Below, one piece after another: positions 4,345-63,520 of a stretch of 64,000 nucleotides of DNA. The DNA is taken from assembly GCF_008973485.1 (NCBI RefSeq), contig NZ_CP031223.1, positions 2,790,001 to 2,854,000 on the forward strand. Reading direction: 5' to 3'. The notes beneath the pieces were generated by a model. It was given only the letters and a program-made list of their open reading frames with translations. It was not told the origin of the DNA and made no database searches. The stretch comes from Psychrobacillus glaciei. Lineage in GTDB: Bacteria; Bacillota; Bacilli; Bacillales_A; Planococcaceae. A program made the translations under genes and the position numbers. The stretch's first letter is position 1, and each line of letters opens with the position of its first letter.

Positions 4345-4492
4345 CTCTATTATGTGACCGCTAGGATTTTCGCTACAGGGCGGACGCTTTCCGCCGGGTG
4401 AGCGATGAGCCATCGCCGACGCTACGCGTTCGCCTGCGATTGCTCATCTGTCTCACTCATCCGGCTGGAGTCGCCGCCATTTCGCTACAATC
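4345..4492 (-). repeat. Family A GC-rich palindromic repeat (unit A1)
   Basis: About 148 bp, far richer in GC than the flanks and internally palindromic (TGAGCCATCGCC with a matching GCGATTGCTCA arm). In reverse orientation it closely matches 51750-51893, including the GCGGACGCTTTCCGC arm and the outer CGCTACAATCC end. Shared with A2-A9 in this window. It has the look of the high-copy intergenic repeats known in Bacillaceae genomes; I could not search for it. Confidence 0.8.
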
Positions 4493-18183: not shown

Positions 18184-18535
18184 CTTAAGAAACGCTCCAG
18201 CGTCCTTTAAGTGCATCTTGTCTTTACTATTTCCAAAGTGCTTTGGACAAAACATCAGGTACACTATTACCGTTGGAATTTTTGTGGCTCGTGTAGTGAC
18301 TGCGTCACTGCACGAGCCATTTTATTCGGTAATCTTGCGGCGGGCGTTTGTCCGTAACGCTCCTGAAGCGTTTAGAGACAAGGTGCATAAAGTTTGGTTA
18401 ATGAGGGACTAGATTCTTAACTACTCATTTAAAAGCGGACGAAGATACAATTCCGTCCGCTTTGTGCTTCTTTATCAATGGATGCTATCTATTTTTCCCA
18501 AGCACTACCCATTCTTATAAAATAACCACTGTATC
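18184..18535 (+). repeat. Family B structured repeat, copy B1 (full length)
   Basis: This copy shows the complete layout: head TTAAGAAA..GC..AGCGTCC, 5-prime arm (GTGCATCTTGTCTTTACTATTTCC), segment ATTACCG, apical hairpin 18284-18320 (GGCTCGTG / CACGAGCC), CGGTAAT, 3-prime arm (AGAGACAAGGTGCA), then the hairpin GCGGACGAAG / TTCCGTCCGC near 18434-18460 and a tail ending in ATGGATGCTATCTATTTTTC. The 5-prime and 3-prime arms are complementary, so the whole can fold as one long hairpin followed by a terminator-like stem. No credible reading frame. Confidence 0.85.
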
Positions 18536-23389: not shown

Positions 23390-23683
23390 TAACTGTTAAA
23401 GAAGTGCTGAGCGGACGAAATTGCATCTTCGTCCGCTTTTAAAAGAATAGGAAAGTATCTAATCTCTCATTAATTAAACCTTACGCACCTTGTCTCTAAC
23501 TATTCCAAGAGGGCGACGGACAATCATCCGCCACAAGATTAATGAAAAAAATGGATCGTGAAGTGACGCAGTCACTTCACGATCCACAAAAAAACACCGG
23601 TAATAGTGTAGCGATGATTCGTCCAAAGCACTCTAGGAATAGAGAAGACAAGAGCACTTAAAGGACGCTTGCGATTTTTCTTA
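23390..23683 (-). repeat. Family B structured repeat, copy B3 (minus orientation)
   Basis: Read on the minus strand it begins at the acsA stop codon (TAAGAAAAATCGCAAGCGTCC). The arms pair over about 45 positions: CTTGTCT, CTATTCC, AGAG, GGAC and ATCATC of the 5-prime arm have complements in order in the 3-prime arm. The apical stem 23552-23586 is perfect (GGATCGTGAAGTGAC and its complement around GCA). The 3-prime hairpin GCGGACGAA / TTCGTCCGC is at 23408-23436. The stretch 23155-23389 contains a short match to the tail shared by other copies (GGTGGAACT..GAGAAAAA) but no gene. Confidence 0.85.
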
Positions 23684-25399
23684 GTCTTCCATAGTGGATA
23701 AGTCGCCAGTTGGTAATTTCAATTCCCAAGCTTTTAAAACCCTACGCATAATTTTACCGCTTCGAGTTTTTGGTAACTTCTCTTTAAATTCAATTTCCCT
23801 AGGGGCTGCATGTGCAGCAAGTCCTTTTTTAACAAATTGCTGAATGTCGGCAATCAATTCGGCTGAAGGTTCATATCCTTCATTCAAAGCGACGAATGCT
23901 TTGATAATTTCTCCACGAACAGGATCTGGTTTACCGATTACTCCAGCTTCTAATATAGCAGGATGCTCTAGTAGCTTGCTTTCCACTTCAAATGGTCCTA
24001 CACGTTCACCAGAAGTCATGATCACATCGTCTACTCGTCCTTGGAACCAATAATATCCTTCATCATCCATATAAGCGGAGTCTCCTGAAAAATACCATTC
24101 ATCATTCATAAAAGTTGACTCGTATTTTTCTTTGTTATTCCAAATTTGACGCATCATAGATGGCCAACCTTTTTTAATCGCTAGATTCCCCATTGTGAAT
24201 GGCGGAACAACATTTCCTTGATTGTCTATAATGGCTGCTTCTAATCCCGGTAAAGGTTTACCCATCGATCCAGGTTTGATCGGTAAACAGCCGTAATTAC
24301 AAATCATTTGTGCTCCTGTTTCTGTCATCCACCAAGTATCATGAATTCGCTTGTTAAATACATGCATTCCCCACTTGATCACTTCAGGATTTAATGGTTC
24401 CCCTACGGATAGTACATGGCGTAAAGTGGATAAATCATGTGCTTTAACAATCGCGTCCCCTGCTCCCATCAACATACGAAATGCAGTTGGGGCACTATAC
24501 CAAACCGTGACTCCATACTCATCAATCGCGTTATACCATGCATCTGGCGAAAAACGTCCCCCAAGCACAAGAGAAGTAGCACCTGCAAGCCACGGGCCAA
24601 ATACACCATAAGATGTACCTGTCACCCATCCAGGATCTGCTGTGCACCAGTAAATATCTTCATCTCTAATATCCATAACCCATTTCATAGATTGGTATTG
24701 TTGAACCATTGCATAATGCACATGCAAAATGCCTTTTGGCTTCCCTGTTGAACCGGATGTATAATGTAAGATTAGACCATCCTCTTTATCAACCCATTCT
24801 ATGTCAAAAGAATCAGACGCCTGCACTAATGACTTATTAAAATCTATAAATTTTTCTGTTTCTTCTATAGTTTCACCCACTAAAAAAACTGTTTCTAAAT
24901 GAGGTAATTTATCCAACGGAATTCTATTAAGTAAATCTGGAGTAGTAACAATAGCTTTCGCTTCACTATCTAGTAAGCGATCATAAACTGCACCTTCCAT
25001 GAATGCTTCAAATAGAGGACCTACAATAACACCCATTTTAACCGCACCTAGAAGTGCAAAATATAATTCAGGTGACCTAGGCATAAAAATAAAAAGACGA
25101 TCTCCTTTTTTAAGGGTAGAATTTTGTTTGTATACATTTGCTGCTTTATTGCTCCTATTTTTCATGTCAAGGAATGTATAAGATTCTTTCCTATTGGCAT
25201 CTTGGTAATACAGTGCAACTTTATCTTTTCTATAAGATTCAGCATGTCTATCAATAGCTTCATAGGCCATATTAACTTTTCCAGTTTCATACCATGAAAA
25301 GTTCTTCTCCGCATCTTCCCATTGAAAGGATTTTGCAGTTTCGTCATAATCCTTTAATTGATAGTCTCCAGATACCACTGGTAATACTTCTATTTTCAT
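23681..25399 (-). CDS. acsA: Acetyl-CoA synthetase
   Basis: Activates acetate to acetyl-CoA with ATP, allowing growth on acetate. The 572-aa protein has LHYTSGSTGKPKGILHVH near residue 212, the WWMTETG motif, YYWFQGRVDDVIMTSGERVG with the hinge region, and PKTRSGKIMRR near 548, whose lysine is the residue acetylated by AcuA in B. subtilis. The end, LPTGDLSTMED, is conserved with that protein. ATG 25399 gives exactly the B. subtilis length; the GTG at 25408 is part of the ribosome-site region GGGTGAAGAGG. Divergent from acuABC, which encodes its acetylation control. Confidence 0.95.
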   Translation of the reverse strand: MKIEVLPVVSGDYQLKDYDETAKSFQWEDAEKNFSWYETGKVNMAYEAIDRHAESYRKDKVALYYQDANRKESYTFLDMKNRSNKAANVYKQNSTLKKGDRLFIFMPRSPELYFALLGAVKMGVIVGPLFEAFMEGAVYDRLLDSEAKAIVTTPDLLNRIPLDKLPHLETVFLVGETIEETEKFIDFNKSLVQASDSFDIEWVDKEDGLILHYTSGSTGKPKGILHVHYAMVQQYQSMKWVMDIRDEDIYWCTADPGWVTGTSYGVFGPWLAGATSLVLGGRFSPDAWYNAIDEYGVTVWYSAPTAFRMLMGAGDAIVKAHDLSTLRHVLSVGEPLNPEVIKWGMHVFNKRIHDTWWMTETGAQMICNYGCLPIKPGSMGKPLPGLEAAIIDNQGNVVPPFTMGNLAIKKGWPSMMRQIWNNKEKYESTFMNDEWYFSGDSAYMDDEGYYWFQGRVDDVIMTSGERVGPFEVESKLLEHPAILEAGVIGKPDPVRGEIIKAFVALNEGYEPSAELIADIQQFVKKGLAAHAAPREIEFKEKLPKTRSGKIMRRVLKAWELKLPTGDLSTMED

Positions 25400-25499
25400 C
25401 CTCTTCACCCTTTCAATCGATATACTCTTTTATTCTACAATACTCTTTTATACTTTTGCCAATGTTTTTACTTTTTAGAATGTTTTACGATCTTTAGAT

Positions 25500-30475: not shown

Positions 30476-32611
30476 TTGTCAACCAAGTTATTTGCACTGG
30501 ATATAGGTACAAGATCTGTAGTTGGAATCATCTTAGAAGAACGCGACCAATCATTTCACGTTGTGGATATACTAGTTAAGGAACACAAAGAACGAGCAAT
30601 GGTTGATGGGCAAATACATAATGTTCTTAAAGTAGCGGAAGCAATTATTTCTATTAAAACACAATTAGAAGTAAAACACGGACCACTTGAAAAAGTAAGC
30701 GTTGCCGCTGCTGGACGTGCGTTAAAAACAGAACAAGCCATGGTAGAACTGGATATTAAAAACAGACCTATATTTTCAGAGGAAGACGTTAGTCGCTTGG
30801 AACTATCGGCGGTCCAAAAAGCTCAAACTAATTTAGTCCAAAAAGATTTCGAAAAACACTCTAGTCATTATTATTGTGTTGGATATAGTGTATTATACTA
30901 TCGACTTGATGGGGAAGAAATAGGAAGCTTAGTTGACCAACAAGGGACAGTGGCTTCTATCGAGGTAATCGCTACTTTCTTGCCTAGAGTTGTCGTCGAA
31001 TCATTATTATCTGCTTTAAAGAGAGCAGGTTTAGAGATGGAAGCTTTAACTTTAGAACCAATTGCTGCTATTAATGTATTAATACCGCCATCTATGCGGC
31101 GACTAAATGTTGCTCTTGTTGATATCGGTGCAGGAACGTCTGATATCGCTATCACAGATCACGGTACGGTTGTTGCCTACGGGATGGTTCCAAATGCCGG
31201 TGACGAGATAACAGAAGCATTAAGCGACCATTATTTATTAGACTTCCCGCTTGCAGAAGAAGCGAAGCGAGCTATTAATCAAAATGACTTTATACGTATT
31301 CAAGATATTTTAGGTTTTGATCAAAATATACCGAAAGAAGAAGTCATAGATGTTATTCGACCAGCGACTCTTGAATTAGCTACCTCTATTTCAAATGAGA
31401 TACTTCGATTGAATAATAACAAACCAACCAAAGCAGTTATGCTTGTTGGAGGAGGCAGTTTAACTCCATCACTTACTACTATTCTTGCAGAAAAATTAGA
31501 GCTTCCTTCTAACCGTGTAGCTGTTCGTGGAATTGATGCTATTCAAAATTTAACGAAAGAAGACCATATTCCAGTTACACCTGAATTAGTTACACCTATT
31601 GGGATTGCAATCGCTGCAAAACGAGCACCAATTCAATATATGTCAGTAGAAGTAAACAATCAAATCGTTCGACTATTTGAATTAAAAGAAATGACTGTCG
31701 GAGATGCACTACTTGCAGCGAATATATCGGCACGAAAACTATATGGAAAGCCAGGTGCGGCACTTGCTGTTCAAGTAAATGGAAGAGACATTTATATCCC
31801 TGGCGAACACGGGAAACCAGCTCTTATTCACTTGAATGGACATGAAGCTAATACTAAAAAAACAATTAAAAGTAACGATAAGATTGAGCTATTTGAAGGT
31901 CAAGACGGGAAGGATGGGGAGGCAACGGTTCGAGATTTACTTGATGATGCTTCTGTTAAAACCGTTACATGTCAAGGAGTTATACATATAGTAGAACCAA
32001 TTATTTCTATTAACAACCAAAAAGCATCTCTTGATACCGTGCTAAAAGAGAGAGATAAACTAACAGTAGAAACACCACAAACAGTGGAACAAGTATTAGT
32101 AGCAATCCGGAAAGAAAGTTATCTTTCTCAACTAAAACCATTTTCGATTACAATCAATGATAAGAACTACTTTATACCAGAGTTCACTACGTCGTTATGG
32201 TTAAATAACAATCCTGTGAAACTACAATATCCTGTTCAAGATAATGATATTTTAGAAATAAAAATAGTAAGCTCACCAAAGCTATTACAAATTGCTAATC
32301 AATTAGATAGAAAACTAGTCGATCAAATTAAAGTTATTTTTCAGAATGAAGAAATTGAACTATTTAAATCATGTGCAATTGTTTCCAATGGAGCAACACC
32401 TATTACTTCAGAGGATATCGTTCCAAATGGTTCAATTCTTCAATGGCAAGATGTCAATACTTCTTCTTGGATCTTTCAAGATGTCTTTCGCTTTTCTAAT
32501 TGGACTTTACCGGATGCTAAGGGTTCCTTTCAAATTAGGAAGAATGGACAAGCATCTGGTTTTGATGAAGAAATCTTCGGTGGAGATCAACTAGAGATCG
32601 TTTTTAATTAA
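30476..32611 (+). CDS. Large FtsA-like actin-family ATPase with repeat C terminus
   Basis: A 711-aa cytoplasmic protein. The first 385 residues form an FtsA/PilM-like actin fold: ALDIGTRSVVGI (phosphate 1), LVDIGAGTSDIAITDHGTVV near 220 (phosphate 2), MLVGGGSLTPSLTTILAEKL near 325 (adenosine loop). The rest (390-711) is an extension with about five similar units, each with a V/I-N strand and an end like NDKIEL, RDKLTV, NDILEI, NGSILQW or GDQLEI, reminiscent of beta-grasp repeats. Homologs annotated as cell division protein FtsA exist in Bacillales, but the true FtsA sits beside ftsZ, so this is a paralog of unknown role. TTG 30476 follows AAGGGACGTG. A family B repeat starts at its stop codon. 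Confidence 0.75.
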   Translation: MSTKLFALDIGTRSVVGIILEERDQSFHVVDILVKEHKERAMVDGQIHNVLKVAEAIISIKTQLEVKHGPLEKVSVAAAGRALKTEQAMVELDIKNRPIFSEEDVSRLELSAVQKAQTNLVQKDFEKHSSHYYCVGYSVLYYRLDGEEIGSLVDQQGTVASIEVIATFLPRVVVESLLSALKRAGLEMEALTLEPIAAINVLIPPSMRRLNVALVDIGAGTSDIAITDHGTVVAYGMVPNAGDEITEALSDHYLLDFPLAEEAKRAINQNDFIRIQDILGFDQNIPKEEVIDVIRPATLELATSISNEILRLNNNKPTKAVMLVGGGSLTPSLTTILAEKLELPSNRVAVRGIDAIQNLTKEDHIPVTPELVTPIGIAIAAKRAPIQYMSVEVNNQIVRLFELKEMTVGDALLAANISARKLYGKPGAALAVQVNGRDIYIPGEHGKPALIHLNGHEANTKKTIKSNDKIELFEGQDGKDGEATVRDLLDDASVKTVTCQGVIHIVEPIISINNQKASLDTVLKERDKLTVETPQTVEQVLVAIRKESYLSQLKPFSITINDKNYFIPEFTTSLWLNNNPVKLQYPVQDNDILEIKIVSSPKLLQIANQLDRKLVDQIKVIFQNEEIELFKSCAIVSNGATPITSEDIVPNGSILQWQDVNTSSWIFQDVFRFSNWTLPDAKGSFQIRKNGQASGFDEEIFGGDQLEIVFN

Positions 32612-33060
32612 GAAAAGCGCAAGTGACCTTTATGTTCATCTTGTCCTCTCTGTTTCCAGAGTGCTTTGGACTAAATCCTCATCTACACTATTACCGTAGT
32701 AATTTGGCTCATGAAGTGACTGTGTCACTTCACGAGCCATTTTTTCAGGTAATCTTGTGGCTGGTGTTTGTCCGTCGCCATCTTGAAATAGATAGAGACA
32801 AGGTACATAAGCTTTGGATAATGAAAGAATAAATCCTATTCTACTCTTTTAAAAGCGGACGAAGATACAATTTCGTCCGCTCAGCGCTTCTTTATCAATG
32901 AATACTATCTATTTTTTCAGTTTCCACCAACTCTAATCATACACCCACTGATTCATGTATACTGTGTAAGTTAAAACTAAAAAAATCAAAATCTACCCCT
33001 TAAAGTTATACAATGAAGCCTTACTATTACTGAATTCCTAGCGATAGCTGGGCTAAATCT
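32609..33060 (+). repeat. Family B structured repeat, copy B2 (full length)
   Basis: It begins TAAGAAAAGCGCAAG, where TAA is the stop codon of the preceding gene. Apical stem at 32706-32738 (GGCTCATGAAGTGAC / GTCACTTCACGAGCC, one mismatch). Arms: TTATGTTCATCTTGTCC.CTCTG against ATAGAGACAAGGTACATAA. The 3-prime hairpin GCGGACGAAGATACAATTTCGTCCGC is followed by the family tail. From about 32930 to 33060 it aligns with 38870-39010 (for example CTTACTATTACTGAATTC), so the repeated block is larger than the hairpin itself. Confidence 0.85.
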
Positions 33061-33084
33061 TCTTGTTAGGTACTACTCACTTAA

Positions 33085-33240
33085 AGGATTGGAGTGAAAG
33101 GTGGCGACTCCGGCGGGATGAGTGAGACAGATGAGCCATCTCAACGACGCGAATGCGGCGGTGATGACTCATCGGTCACCCCGCGGAACGCGTCCACCTG
33201 AAACGGAAATCCGGGGTATTTTTTAATTCTTTCAAGTAAT
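33085..33240 (+). repeat. Family A repeat (unit A3)
   Basis: GGATTGGAGTGAAAGGTGGCG at one end, palindromic middle GATGAGCCATC..GATGACTCATC, and CCGCGGAACGCGTCCACCTG at the other end. The flanks match those of unit A4 at 39.0 kb. Confidence 0.8.
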
Positions 33241-33284
33241 ATGAACGCTGGTTTCGCAGGTTGATAATCCATAAACTTTCTTAT

Positions 33285-33520
33285 CTTTTTAGATAAACGC
33301 AAGCACCATTTAGGTGTATCTTACCTTCTCTATTTCCAAGTGCTTTGGACGAAACATTTGCTACACTATTGCAGTTAGAGTAATGGATGCTATCTATTTT
33401 CTTAAGTTCCACCAATAATTTATCTACCGCTTGAATCCTGTATACCGTGGACCGTAGAGGAAGGCGCCAAGATGGTTCGATCTCGGAAAGCAAGTATCTT
33501 TTTCCAATTTCGTTTTAACG
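33285..33520 (+). repeat. Family B repeat, shortened copy B4
   Basis: It keeps the head and 5-prime arm (TAAACGCAAGC.CC, GTGTATCTTACCTTCTCTATT, GTGCTTTGGACGAAACAT) and then jumps to the tail TAATGGATGCTATCTATTTT. The apical stem, 3-prime arm and terminator hairpin are missing. Confidence 0.75.
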
Positions 33521-38474: not shown

Positions 38475-38547
38475 CACTCTTTCTACTAGATACATTCTAT
38501 TTTAACAGTAATAACGGCTATCGTCCTTACTTATCTGAAGAAATTTA

Positions 38548-38960
38548 GAAAAACGCTAGCGTCCTTTAAGTGCATCTTGTCTTTACTATTTCCAGAGTGC
38601 TTTGGACGAAACATTGGTTACACTATTAACAGGGGAATTTTTGTGGATTGAAAAGTGACTGCGTCAATTCTCAATCCACTTTTTTCGGTAATTTTGTGGC
38701 GAATGTTTGTCCGTCACCTTCTCGAAATATGCAAAGTCATAATGCATTAGGTTTGGATAATGAGAGAATAAACCCTATTCTACTCTTTTAAAAGTGGACG
38801 AAGAGTCAAATTCGTCCGCTCTGCTCTTCTTTATCAATGGATGCTCTCTATTTTTCTCTAGTAGCGCCCGCTCTAATCATACACCCACTTATTCATATAT
38901 ACTGTGTACGGTAAAAGTAAAAACAATCAAGATCAAGCCTTTGAAAATATACTATGAAGC
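38548..38960 (+). repeat. Family B structured repeat, copy B5 (full length)
   Basis: Head TTAGAAAAACGCTAGCGTCC, the 5-prime arm, apical stem 38643-38679 (GTGGATTGA / TCAATCCAC at the base), a 3-prime arm with TGCAAAGTCATAATGCA, then the hairpin GTGGACGAAGAGTCAAATTCGTCCGC near 38792. Apical stem bases differ from B1 and B2 in both arms at once, keeping the pairs. It starts 74 bases upstream of the sftA start, pointing away from it. Confidence 0.82.
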
Positions 38961-39090: not shown

Positions 39091-39166
39091 ATTTAATTCT
39101 TTAAATTACTATGAACACTGCTTTCGCAGGAGGAAAATTCATATACTTTCTTATTCTTGGCACAAA

Positions 39167-40689: not shown

Positions 40690-41000
40690 CATTAAGAAAA
40701 GCTCAAGTGTTCTTTACATCTCGTCTTTACTATTACCAGAGTGCTTTGGACGAAACATCAACTAACACTATTACCGTTGGAATTTTTGTGGCAGATGTTG
40801 GTCGGTCGCCCTCTTAATATATTTAGAGACAAAATACATAAGGTTTGAATAATGAGTGAATAAATCCTCTCCTACTCTTTTAAAAGCGGACGAAGAGTCA
40901 ATTTCGTCCGCTCAGCACTTTTTTATGAATGAATGCTACCTATTTTTCTCAAGTTCCACCTAATCTAATCATCTACCCAATGATTTATATGCACTTTAGA
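40690..41000 (+). repeat. Family B repeat, copy B6 lacking the apical stem
   Basis: Head TTAAGAAAAGCTCAAG, 5-prime arm and ATTACCGTTGGAATTTTTGTGGC are present; the next bases already belong to the 3-prime arm (AGATGTTGGTCGGTCGCC). The missing piece lies exactly between two TTGTGGC copies found in full elements, so it was probably lost by recombination or slippage between them. The hairpin GCGGACGAAGAGTCAATTTCGTCCGC and the tail are intact. Confidence 0.8.
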
Positions 41001-41225: not shown

Positions 41226-41264
41226 TTATGATCAAAAGTTTATACACTTTCTAATTCTTTAAGA

Positions 41265-41430
41265 AAAGCCCAATCGTCCTTAAGTGCATCCAGTGTTTGT
41301 CCTTCGCCTTCTTGGATTTTGTAAAGACATGATGCATTTGGTTTGGATAATGAGAGATAAGATGCTATCTTAATCTTTTAAAAGCGGACGAAGATTCGTC
41401 CGCTCAGCGCTTCATTATCATTAGACACTA
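41265..41430 (+). repeat. Family B repeat, shortened copy B7, reused as terminator
   Basis: Head TTTAAGAAAAGCCCAATCG, short 5-prime piece, then TTTGTCCTTCGCCTTCTTGG of the 3-prime arm. Its final hairpin (AGCGGACGAA / TTCGTCCGCT, 41383-41403) has lost the usual loop. On the minus strand this hairpin lies about 30 bases after the ytpP stop codon and runs into TTTT, so it probably ends the ytpP transcript. Confidence 0.75.
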
Positions 41431-44523: not shown

Positions 44524-44557
44524 AAAAGCGTCCGAAGATACAACTTCGGACGCTTTT
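44524..44557. terminator. Terminator of ytzB and ytnP, derived from a family B tail
   Basis: Perfect 14-bp stem AAAAGCGTCCGAAG / CTTCGGACGCTTTT around ATACAA. The loop and following bases (TTTATTAATGGATACTATCTT) match the end of the family B repeat, while the stem bases differ in both arms. It can serve the two converging genes. Confidence 0.88.
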
Positions 44558-44582
44558 AGTTGCTTTATTAATGGATACTATC

Positions 44583-51749: not shown

Positions 51750-51893
51750 GTTGATTGTAGCGAAAGGGAGGCGACTCCAGCTGGATGAGTGAGACAGATG
51801 AGCAATCGCAGGCGAATGCGTAGCGTCGGCGATGGCTCATCGCTCACCCGGCGGAAAGCGTCCGCACTGTAGCGAAAATCCTAGCGGTAACTA
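51750..51893 (+). repeat. Family A repeat (unit A7)
   Basis: TTGATTGTAGCGAAAGGGAGGC to CTGTAGCGAAAATCCTAGC. In reverse complement it matches A1 nearly throughout, including GATGAGCAATCGCAGGCG and the CCGGCGGAAAGCGTCCGC arm. Confidence 0.8.
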
Positions 51894-56462: not shown

Positions 56463-56779
56463 ATTTGCTAACTATTCAGTTTCACTATACACTTTTCAAT
56501 CTTAACTGTATTATCTGAATAAAAATCCAAATAATGGGTGATCGACAAGAATCACATGATGAACACGACAAATTTCTCATAATAAAGTTTTAACTTGGCG
56601 TGAGATGGCATTGATTAATTGCACGCACTCTTAATAACGCGTACTAACAAAAAACCTCTATTCTTGTGGCACTCTTTAATATTTAGTTGGAAAAAAGGGA
56701 AGTTTAGTTAAAAAAGAAATTATTCTTCTCTTTTTTATACACAATTCCCCAACTCAGAATAACTAGCAAGCTCTAGTCG

Positions 56780-56928
56780 ATTGTAGCAAAAGGTCGGCAA
56801 CTCCTGCGGGATGAGTGAGACAGATGCCCCATCACATCGTACGCGTAGCGTCGGTGATGGGGCACCGCTCACCCCGCGGAAAGCGTCCGCCCTGCAGCGG
56901 AAATCCCAGCGGCAACTTTCTTACGACG
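56780..56928 (+). repeat. Family A repeat (unit A9)
   Basis: GTCGATTGTAGCAAAAGGTCGG, GATGCCCCATCACATCG with the complementary CGGTGATGGGGCACCG, and CCGCGGAAAGCGTCCGCC to the end. GATGCCCC/GGGGCA has changed in both arms compared with GATGAGCC/GGCTCATC of A7. Confidence 0.78.
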
Positions 56929-63026: not shown

Positions 63027-63045
63027 TAAAATTCCTCCTTAAATT

Positions 63046-63265
63046 AAGAAAAGTGTAAGCGCCTATGTCTGCCCCGACAGGCAAATGGAGAAAGTGTAGG
63101 TCTGCAAAGTACGCCACATCCTGTGGCAAAGCAGACATGACCCGCATCGTGCTGGCCCAGGAGGCAGCTCCACAGCCACCACATACGCTCTTGTTTGCGA
63201 CGAGCTTGCTCAGGAGCAGCTTTTTCACATTTGACCCCGAGGGGCAAGGCGCTGAAACTAGACAA
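63046..63265. repeat. GC-rich inserted repeat between the leuS T-box and leuS
   Basis: About 220 bp, much richer in GC than its flanks. The ends are complementary in blocks (GCGCCT..GCCCC against GGGGC..GGCGC), so it can form a cruciform. It begins TTAAGAAAAGTGTAAGCGCC, closely similar to the head of family B (TTAAGAAAAGCGCAAGYG). Open frames run through both strands because of the base composition; none has a ribosome site. It lies between the T-box terminator and the leuS ribosome site, so it is transcribed as leader RNA. Confidence 0.75.
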
Positions 63266-63267
63266 AT

Positions 63268-63520
63268 AAAAAAAATCTCGTCCCTTAAAAAACTAAGGGA
63301 CGAGAGTATATACTCACGCGGTACCACCCAAATTAGTGAAAAATTCACTCAACTTGACTCCTTAACGCGGAAAACGGTATAAGCTACTATCAGTTCACTC
63401 ATACAGACTCAAAGGCGAGTTCAATAATTCGTCACGCTAACTTCCACCAACCGTTAGCTCTCTATATTAACGAGGGTTATTTACTAATCCTTTTCACAGT
63501 CAACTTCTATTAAAACTAAT
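63268..63520 (-). promoter_or_regulatory. T-box riboswitch of leuS
   Basis: Invariant GGTGGTACCGCG (complement at 63318-63329), stem I segment AGAGAGCTAACGGTTGGTGG, and terminator stem TCTCGTCCCTT / AAGGGACGAGA (63275-63305) with seven T. The triplet CTC followed by G, in TTGAACTCGCC, is the likely leucine specifier. Uncharged tRNA-Leu would favour readthrough into leuS. Confidence 0.92.

Follow-up and report, generated by a model that had tools for sequence, protein, structure and literature searches.

A covarying hairpin family in Psychrobacillus glaciei is probably the left module of mosaic mobile elements with IS91-family termini

The DNA at positions 23390-23682 carries a long hairpin that recurs nearby with compensatory base changes, and the question raised by this locus is whether such an element should be regarded as a structured RNA or as a mobile piece of DNA. 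The initial annotation of the window (the whole 64-kb stretch that was analysed, C1:2790001-2854000 of the 4.35-Mb Psychrobacillus glaciei genome, G000) had read the base changes as a sign of selection on the fold, and had named both a new structured RNA and a MITE-type repeat as candidates.

Four long copies, each with a left end, outer arms, core, apical stem and 3′ hairpin, are indeed found in the window. Three lie on the plus strand, at 18186-18535, 32609-32960 and 38545-38960 (the last including the start of a downstream tail), and the copy under study, 23390-23682, lies on the minus strand. The 126-nt core was represented by a covariance model built from 49 sequences (R1), which matches these copies at 18236-18361 (124.9 bits), 32659-32781 (115.6 bits), 38595-38720 (134.3 bits) and 23510-23633 (128.2 bits), respectively. 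The left boundary of the long copies is (T)AAGAAAA. For the copy under study this left end, at 23682, coincides in part with the stop of gene 23681-25408 on the minus strand, and that of the 32609 copy falls at the stop codon of the plus-strand gene 30476-32611. The apical stems quoted in the initial annotation (GGCTCGTG/CACGAGCC, GGATCGTG/CACGATCC and GGATTGA/TCAATCC) can be read in the sequence, as can the variant 3′ hairpin at 44524 (GCGTCCGAAG ATACAA CTTCGGACGC). The inner ATTACCG/CGGTAAT pair is likewise present, with imperfections in the copies at 38548 (ATTAACA) and 23390 (CATTAAT on the 3′ side). Shortened copies were also recovered on the plus strand: 33289-33420; 40693-41000, which lacks the apical stem (core 40739-40812, 53.1 bits); 41260-41430, which retains only the left end, the outer 3′ part and the 3′ hairpin; and an isolated 3′ hairpin near 44524-44553, which together with its flank occupies 44524-44580.

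Collecting the copies in this genome and its relatives and building a covariance model, the course that the initial annotation had suggested, yields a large family, far beyond chance. The R1 search returns 150 core matches in P. glaciei, all with E <= 1.4e-5. Because five of these are opposite-strand echoes, they mark at least 145 distinct places, and this count is a lower bound in that the best 150 of 1967 first-look candidates were scored. Five complete relatives hold 27 (G008), 4 (G011), 119 (G012), 130 (G014) and 106 (G015) matches, echoes included. Among 250 sampled genomes of the family, with at most the best 14 candidates scored per genome, the core was found in 36: all 19 of the genus, nine in genus g3, seven in g11 and one in g14. 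A search of plasmid and phage collections in distant mode, with one copy of the hairpin as query, gave no match. Three P. glaciei copies (L008, L012 and L014) have a hairpin module about 34 nt longer than usual, and about 10 copies are crowded within 50 kb of G015 (C1:2317778-2365719), a cluster that should be close to the expected terminus because it lies near the middle of the chromosome.

The fold itself covaries strongly. In an alignment of 38 copies, pairing is kept in 85.1% of cells, and 54 of the 88 pairs show changes in both partners; the structure scored here was predicted from this same alignment, and none of 500 shuffles reaches any of five covariation measures, with slid structures pairing in 40-48% of cells. 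Long-range arms contribute as well, as evident by helix 2, where both sides have changed in 11 of 12 pairs. As far as covariation goes, the claim of selection on the fold is therefore supported.

The kind of departures from canonical pairing bears on whether this selection acts on an RNA. Selection on an RNA should leave an excess of G.U over A.C, the counterpart of G.U on the opposite strand, and the two are nearly equal: 15 to 14 in the apical stem of the 49 sequences, 40 to 34 in that of 121 P. glaciei loci, and 118 to 103 for pairs that the folds of the two strands share. Such near-equality would be expected if the fold is kept in DNA, or if one arm is copied onto the other. In an Rfam search of the element nothing reached gathering score, and there were only sub-threshold matches. 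Among the latter was a group I intron match in one copy (24 bits, E 5e-4), which was dropped because larger searches with stricter filters omit it for eight other loci and for the other copies in the window. A separate observation made by eye is that the apical hairpin of L053 is the exact reverse complement of that in L055 and L068, all loci of P. soli, which suggests that hairpins flip or that one arm is copied from the other.

When the sequence beyond the fold is compared among copies, the hairpin (~330 nt) is seen to form the left part of larger mosaic elements whose ends are fixed, TAAGAAAA...CATATACTTTCTTATCTT. These composites are about 0.35-1 kb long, many are truncated, and no frame of 120 or more amino acids is present in the hairpin module. 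Most of the 45 P. glaciei copies compared share a left end consisting of (T)AAGAAAA, a short hairpin and CCTTT. Downstream of the hairpin, several alternative tails follow, some running through a second repeat (family A), and many of them reconverge on the right end CATATACTTTCTTATCTT. This right-end 18-mer occurs at 53 places in the genome with at most two mismatches, compared to three for a backward control, so that about 53 right ends stand against 145 cores. In the window, the composite that begins at 32609 continues on the plus strand with a tail and then a family A module through 32961-33269, and ends at 33270-33287 (CATAAACTTTCTTATCTT, one mismatch). The shortened copy 33289-33420, whose left end has three mismatches to the pattern used, abuts this right end in tandem. 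The composite that begins at 38545 ends at 39140-39157 on the plus strand (two mismatches), and an A-run follows shortly after. Of the 52 right ends that have enough flank, 20 are directly followed by the next left end in such head-to-tail arrangements. Inspection by eye of both ends revealed no shared flanks or target-site duplication, and the inverted similarity between the ends amounts to just ~7-8 nt (TAAGAAA/TTTCTTA). The putative insertion junctions would be (T)AAGAAAA and CTTATCTT.

Several other modules are associated with these composites. Family A repeats (GGCGACTCC...GATGAGTGAGACAGATGAG), which form an inner module of several composites, occur in the window at 4354-4492, 33083-33224, 51750-51892 and 56776-56917. 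Inserts with GCCACTGAAAAAGT-like bounds, which may be IS1182-like ends, are nested in the composites of L017, L018, L024, L028, L132 and L136. In copies L089, L090, L094 and L099 from genus g3, another GAAATTGNATCTTC-like hairpin is present in inverted form towards the 3′ end, and several g3 copies have a left end of the GTTGATTAACC type. Matches to the Rfam Bacillaceae-1 RNA (RF01690) fall within or near composite members in six of 18 loci searched (L138 at 1111-1177, L146 at 2840-2906, L128, L002, L130 and L217). It also occurs in the window, at 63089-63155, enclosed by a probable related element at 63045-63274 (plus strand) that has the same left end (two mismatches) and a different inside, of the same kind as in L138. 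The right-end motif was looked for in this element and was not found; the element extends up to an A-run that adjoins a hairpin, next to a T-box leader. Given that RF01690 is located within or near composites, 'Bacillaceae-1 RNA' may be a transposon hairpin module. Its 67-nt model is separate from that of the hairpin described here, and a likeness between the two was not noticed in passing.

A candidate partner for the composites is present in the same genome. At four right ends sits a 1.57-kb insertion sequence (IS), as four near-identical copies that are 98.7-99.8% alike over the 1525-1585 nt compared. Its 428-aa product matches the IS91 transposase model NF033538 over the cut-off (E 2.3e-90) as well as the Zn_Tnp_IS91 (7.5e-19) and Y2_Tnp (1.5e-41) domains, and HVH and YIGRY motifs can be read in its translation. 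The right terminus of the IS is the composite 18-mer, identical in all 18 letters, together with the subterminal palindrome; a typed composite right end scores 25 against it, whereas 1000 shuffles give 15 or less. The left terminus of the IS, ATAAGAAAAACCGGGC...GCCCGGTCCTTT, forms a 36-nt terminal hairpin that recurs in five copies picked by eye, one each from P. glaciei, G012 and G013 and two from G014, with scores of 23-33 versus 14 or less in shuffles. The short hairpin that is the common left end in P. glaciei behaves otherwise, as its typed consensus scores 10 against the IS and the best of 1000 shuffles also scores 10. A GC-rich terminal stem-loop is found in the IS and in L072, L075, L080, L087 and L130, with shorter stems in most P. 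glaciei copies. In the IS this hairpin is on the tnpA stop-codon side, and excerpts from PMC3189936 place it at the left end of IS91-family elements. CTTG (CAAG) adjoins the right end in all four IS copies; over 87 right-end-like sites the tetranucleotide is CTTT in 36, TCTT in 11, CTTG in nine (four of them the IS itself) and CTTC in three.

The same AAAGATAAGAAAGTATA end is carried by IS91 relatives in four genomes from three other genera (G110, G019, G069 and G241). Partner and core are seldom found together: an IS91 transposase that passes the cut-off was found in only two of the 36 genomes with the core (G000 and G214), and the core is absent from six of the eight sampled genomes that have such a transposase. 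Within the genus the transposase occurs only in P. glaciei, yet each of the five complete sister genomes has between 4 and 130 core matches. It follows that amplification elsewhere is past or was carried out by another enzyme. Further IS91 elements of Bacilli have other ends, namely TAGGAAATTATAAAA (L220, L221, L222 and sister loci) and, in plasmids, TATAAGG.ATTATAAAA (L212 and L213), and these mostly start behind terminator-like T-tracts.

The flanks of the composites also point to a target preference. After 23 of 32 non-tandem right ends there is an A-run followed by a hairpin, which is the back of the neighbouring gene's intrinsic terminator, and this arrangement is found at 31 of 2000 random positions. 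The matched element begins within 3 nt of the upstream gene's stop codon in 10 of 45 loci. When the IS91 loci from genomes other than P. glaciei were inspected by eye, a hairpin and T-tract were found directly before 13 of 16, and the same is true for three of three IS91 plasmid copies from Lactobacillales.

With replication origins placed by dnaA, the orientation of the family is seen to follow the replication fork. In P. glaciei, 134 of 145 places among the matches listed read against the fork (p 5e-28), and the copy under study is one of the 11 that are oriented with it. In four relatives, 141 of 149 among the matches listed read against the fork (G015 38/40, G012 43/46, G014 51/54, G008 9/9). 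All 53 right-end 18-mers with at most two mismatches share this orientation in P. glaciei, and a looser right-end 15-mer gives 82 of 87 against and 5 of 87 with the fork. We considered that the bias might be a by-product of gene direction, and for P. glaciei this was rejected by counting copies according to gene context (112 of 121 loci classed with a simple frame caller). Sites between convergent genes have 47 copies against the fork and six with it, and those between divergent genes five and none. Between tandem genes read with the fork the numbers are 40 and 4, such that 40 of 44 copies are antisense, and between tandem genes read against the fork they are 9 and 1.

IS91 genes themselves are equally biased. 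In four genomes all 18 are co-directional with the fork (G000 4, G195 7, G214 6, G110 1), and for the P. glaciei IS this corresponds to the same polarity as that of the composites. This count sets aside copies on draft contigs (G019, G069, G179 and G241) and degraded copies (G032, G047, G132, G143, G185 and G230); within it, the 13 genes from G195 and G214 belong to elements with ends of a different type, the flanks are the same for two of the G195 copies, and G214 contributes one split and one truncated copy. Cores in genus g3, counted over four genomes, are not clearly biased with respect to the fork (4 of 8), and several of these copies have another left end, which hints that the bias follows the ends and not the core.

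What is observed, then, is a shared right end, a few shared left hairpins, head-to-tail arrays, a terminator flank and a fork orientation that is independent of gene direction. We conclude that the hairpin is probably the structured left module of mosaic mobile elements that share IS91-family termini, with the elements most likely moved in trans by that type of HUH (Y2) transposase. The mobile-DNA half of the initial annotation is thereby strengthened, and its RNA half is not supported.

There are nevertheless features that would suit a new structured non-coding RNA, whether trans-acting or a 3′-UTR or attenuator element, that is merely carried in many copies. The strong covariation extends to the long-range arms, the core is present in at least three genera, and a T-run comes after the apical stem, as in an intrinsic terminator. 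Moreover, some of the U.G pairs hardly vary on the plus strand, and this strand folds with lower energy in 33 of 38 copies. However, the mean difference in energy between strands (-9.4 kcal/mol) is near that of approximate dinucleotide shuffles (-5.9 kcal/mol), and the near-equality of G.U and A.C and the lack of an Rfam match at gathering score also speak against RNA. Likewise, the copy number, tandem layout and fork-locked orientation are traits of mobile DNA, and between tandem genes read with the fork the copies are mostly antisense. On balance an RNA of this kind seems unlikely, although it is the alternative that survives best.

The orientation by replichore, at 92-100% in five genomes, could also be expected of a polar signal in the chromosome, of the Chi or KOPS kind, with its direction selected along each replichore. 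This is very improbable in our estimation, since the right-end motif is a transposon end held in common with the IS, whose IS91 relatives show the same bias in all 18 genes, and since the copies are mosaics of 0.3-1 kb, many of them truncated, with g3 copies unbiased.

An equally poor prospect is a REP-like element mobilised by a RAYT-like transposase (Y1 HUH). Matches to Y1_Tnp occur in 18 of 19 genomes of the genus (one to three each), and Y1 transposition tracks the lagging-strand template according to the accessible text of PMC5371812 and PMC6006769. However, a full core match lies near only two of the 20 Y1 loci that were fetched (from 27 matches, 8-11 kb each), at ~4 kb from the gene. 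Y1_Tnp is found in 166 of the 250 family genomes versus 36 for the core, and G003 has the core and no Y1_Tnp. On the basis of these flanks and this family-wide distribution, a RAYT-like Y1 transposase was rejected as the mover. P. glaciei does have a low-copy Y1 transposase (L108, C1:998144-998482, minus strand) that is also present in 17 of 18 other genomes of the genus and that we label 'RAYT-like'. A different palindrome, GGTGCCAGGCACC, is located upstream of this gene, and the two are probably a separate REP/RAYT system.

Least probable of all is that the covariation is partly a mutational artefact, in which template switching at quasi-palindromes copies arm onto arm so that perfect stems persist unselected: the apical hairpin is nearly perfect and exactly inverted between L053 and L055, and the G.U to A.C ratio is as expected without RNA selection, but far-apart outer arms covary and the flanks GCTTTGGAC and TGTCCGTCGCC are conserved too.

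We return to the reading of the composites as mobile elements with IS91-family termini, which are best understood as non-autonomous IS91-type elements that spread via single-stranded DNA, coupled to replication and aimed at terminators. An IS91-type TnpA would attach the element, as single-stranded DNA, to a T-tract that adjoins a terminator hairpin exposed on the lagging-strand template. The right end (in reverse complement ...TTTTTT-NAAG-ATAAGAAAG) would then land behind the terminator of a leading-strand gene, and an element placed in this manner reads against the fork. Because the joined strand is the lagging-strand template for a gene that is co-directional with the fork, a single insertion orientation per replichore would result.

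The initial annotation had noted that its proposal would fail if the ends of a known insertion element explained all of the pairing. The ends described above account for mobility and do not account for the conserved internal fold. Neither mobility alone nor the ends explain why the core has been kept in at least three genera. We favour a role for the core at the level of DNA, where the fold may be kept as a single-stranded hairpin, as a two-way terminator, or as both. Portable terminators of this sort would make insertion between genes harmless.

We tentatively extend this proposal, with rather less confidence than we have in the reading above. IS91-type transposition in Bacilli might be physically coupled to the fork and target terminator hairpins extruded on the lagging-strand template, and it might in this way have seeded more than 100 fork-oriented elements resembling a bacterial form of Helitron. 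The conserved fold would then be a working single-stranded DNA device, such as a site from which second-strand synthesis begins, or a terminator that acts in both directions and so protects the insertion.

Non-autonomous Helitrons depend on a rolling-circle HUH partner, lack coding capacity, carry a hairpin near one end and have mosaic insides. The composites resemble these eukaryotic elements in each of these respects, and they differ in being bacterial, in having an IS91-type partner and in their fork and terminator bias. The IS91 family (IS91, IS801, IS1294), with its one-ended and miniature derivatives, is like the P. glaciei IS in having an IS91 transposase, a GC-rich stem-loop at one end and CAAG at the other. 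Excerpts from PMC3189936 describe the stem-loop end as conserved, list CAAG among the target tetranucleotides of IS801, and report that IS801 transposase acts in trans and gives one-ended products of 229-679 nt; rolling-circle transposition of IS91 proceeds via single-stranded circles according to a portion of PMC5714925. Unlike members of this family, the composites exist in more than 100 copies and have a conserved structured core, two fixed ends, a mosaic inside, a terminator flank and a fork-locked orientation; the position of the GC-rich hairpin relative to tnpA in the P. glaciei IS is a further difference.

Orientation determined by the fork is known from IS200/IS605 and Tn7, and for IS200/IS605 single-stranded transposition on the lagging-strand template leads to a genome-wide orientation bias, as stated in those sections of PMC5371812 that were available. 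The same sections cite a 2014 survey, which may cover IS91, for fork bias in several further IS families. The composites share such a bias with IS200/IS605 and RAYT/REP (REPIN) systems. However, their partner is Y2/IS91 rather than Y1, and they do not flank Y1 genes at the 20 loci fetched. In the portions of the open-access literature available to us, we found no description of IS91-type elements as biased by the fork or directed to terminators.

The family provides hundreds of natural insertions in five genomes, with gene direction serving as an internal control in one of them. With this family, the link between rolling-circle transposition and replication can be tested directly, and terminators are named as a target. 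The family also serves as a warning that covariation alone can mark mobile DNA as RNA. For the bacteria that carry them, these elements would represent a route by which non-coding families are amplified, as Helitrons do in eukaryotes.
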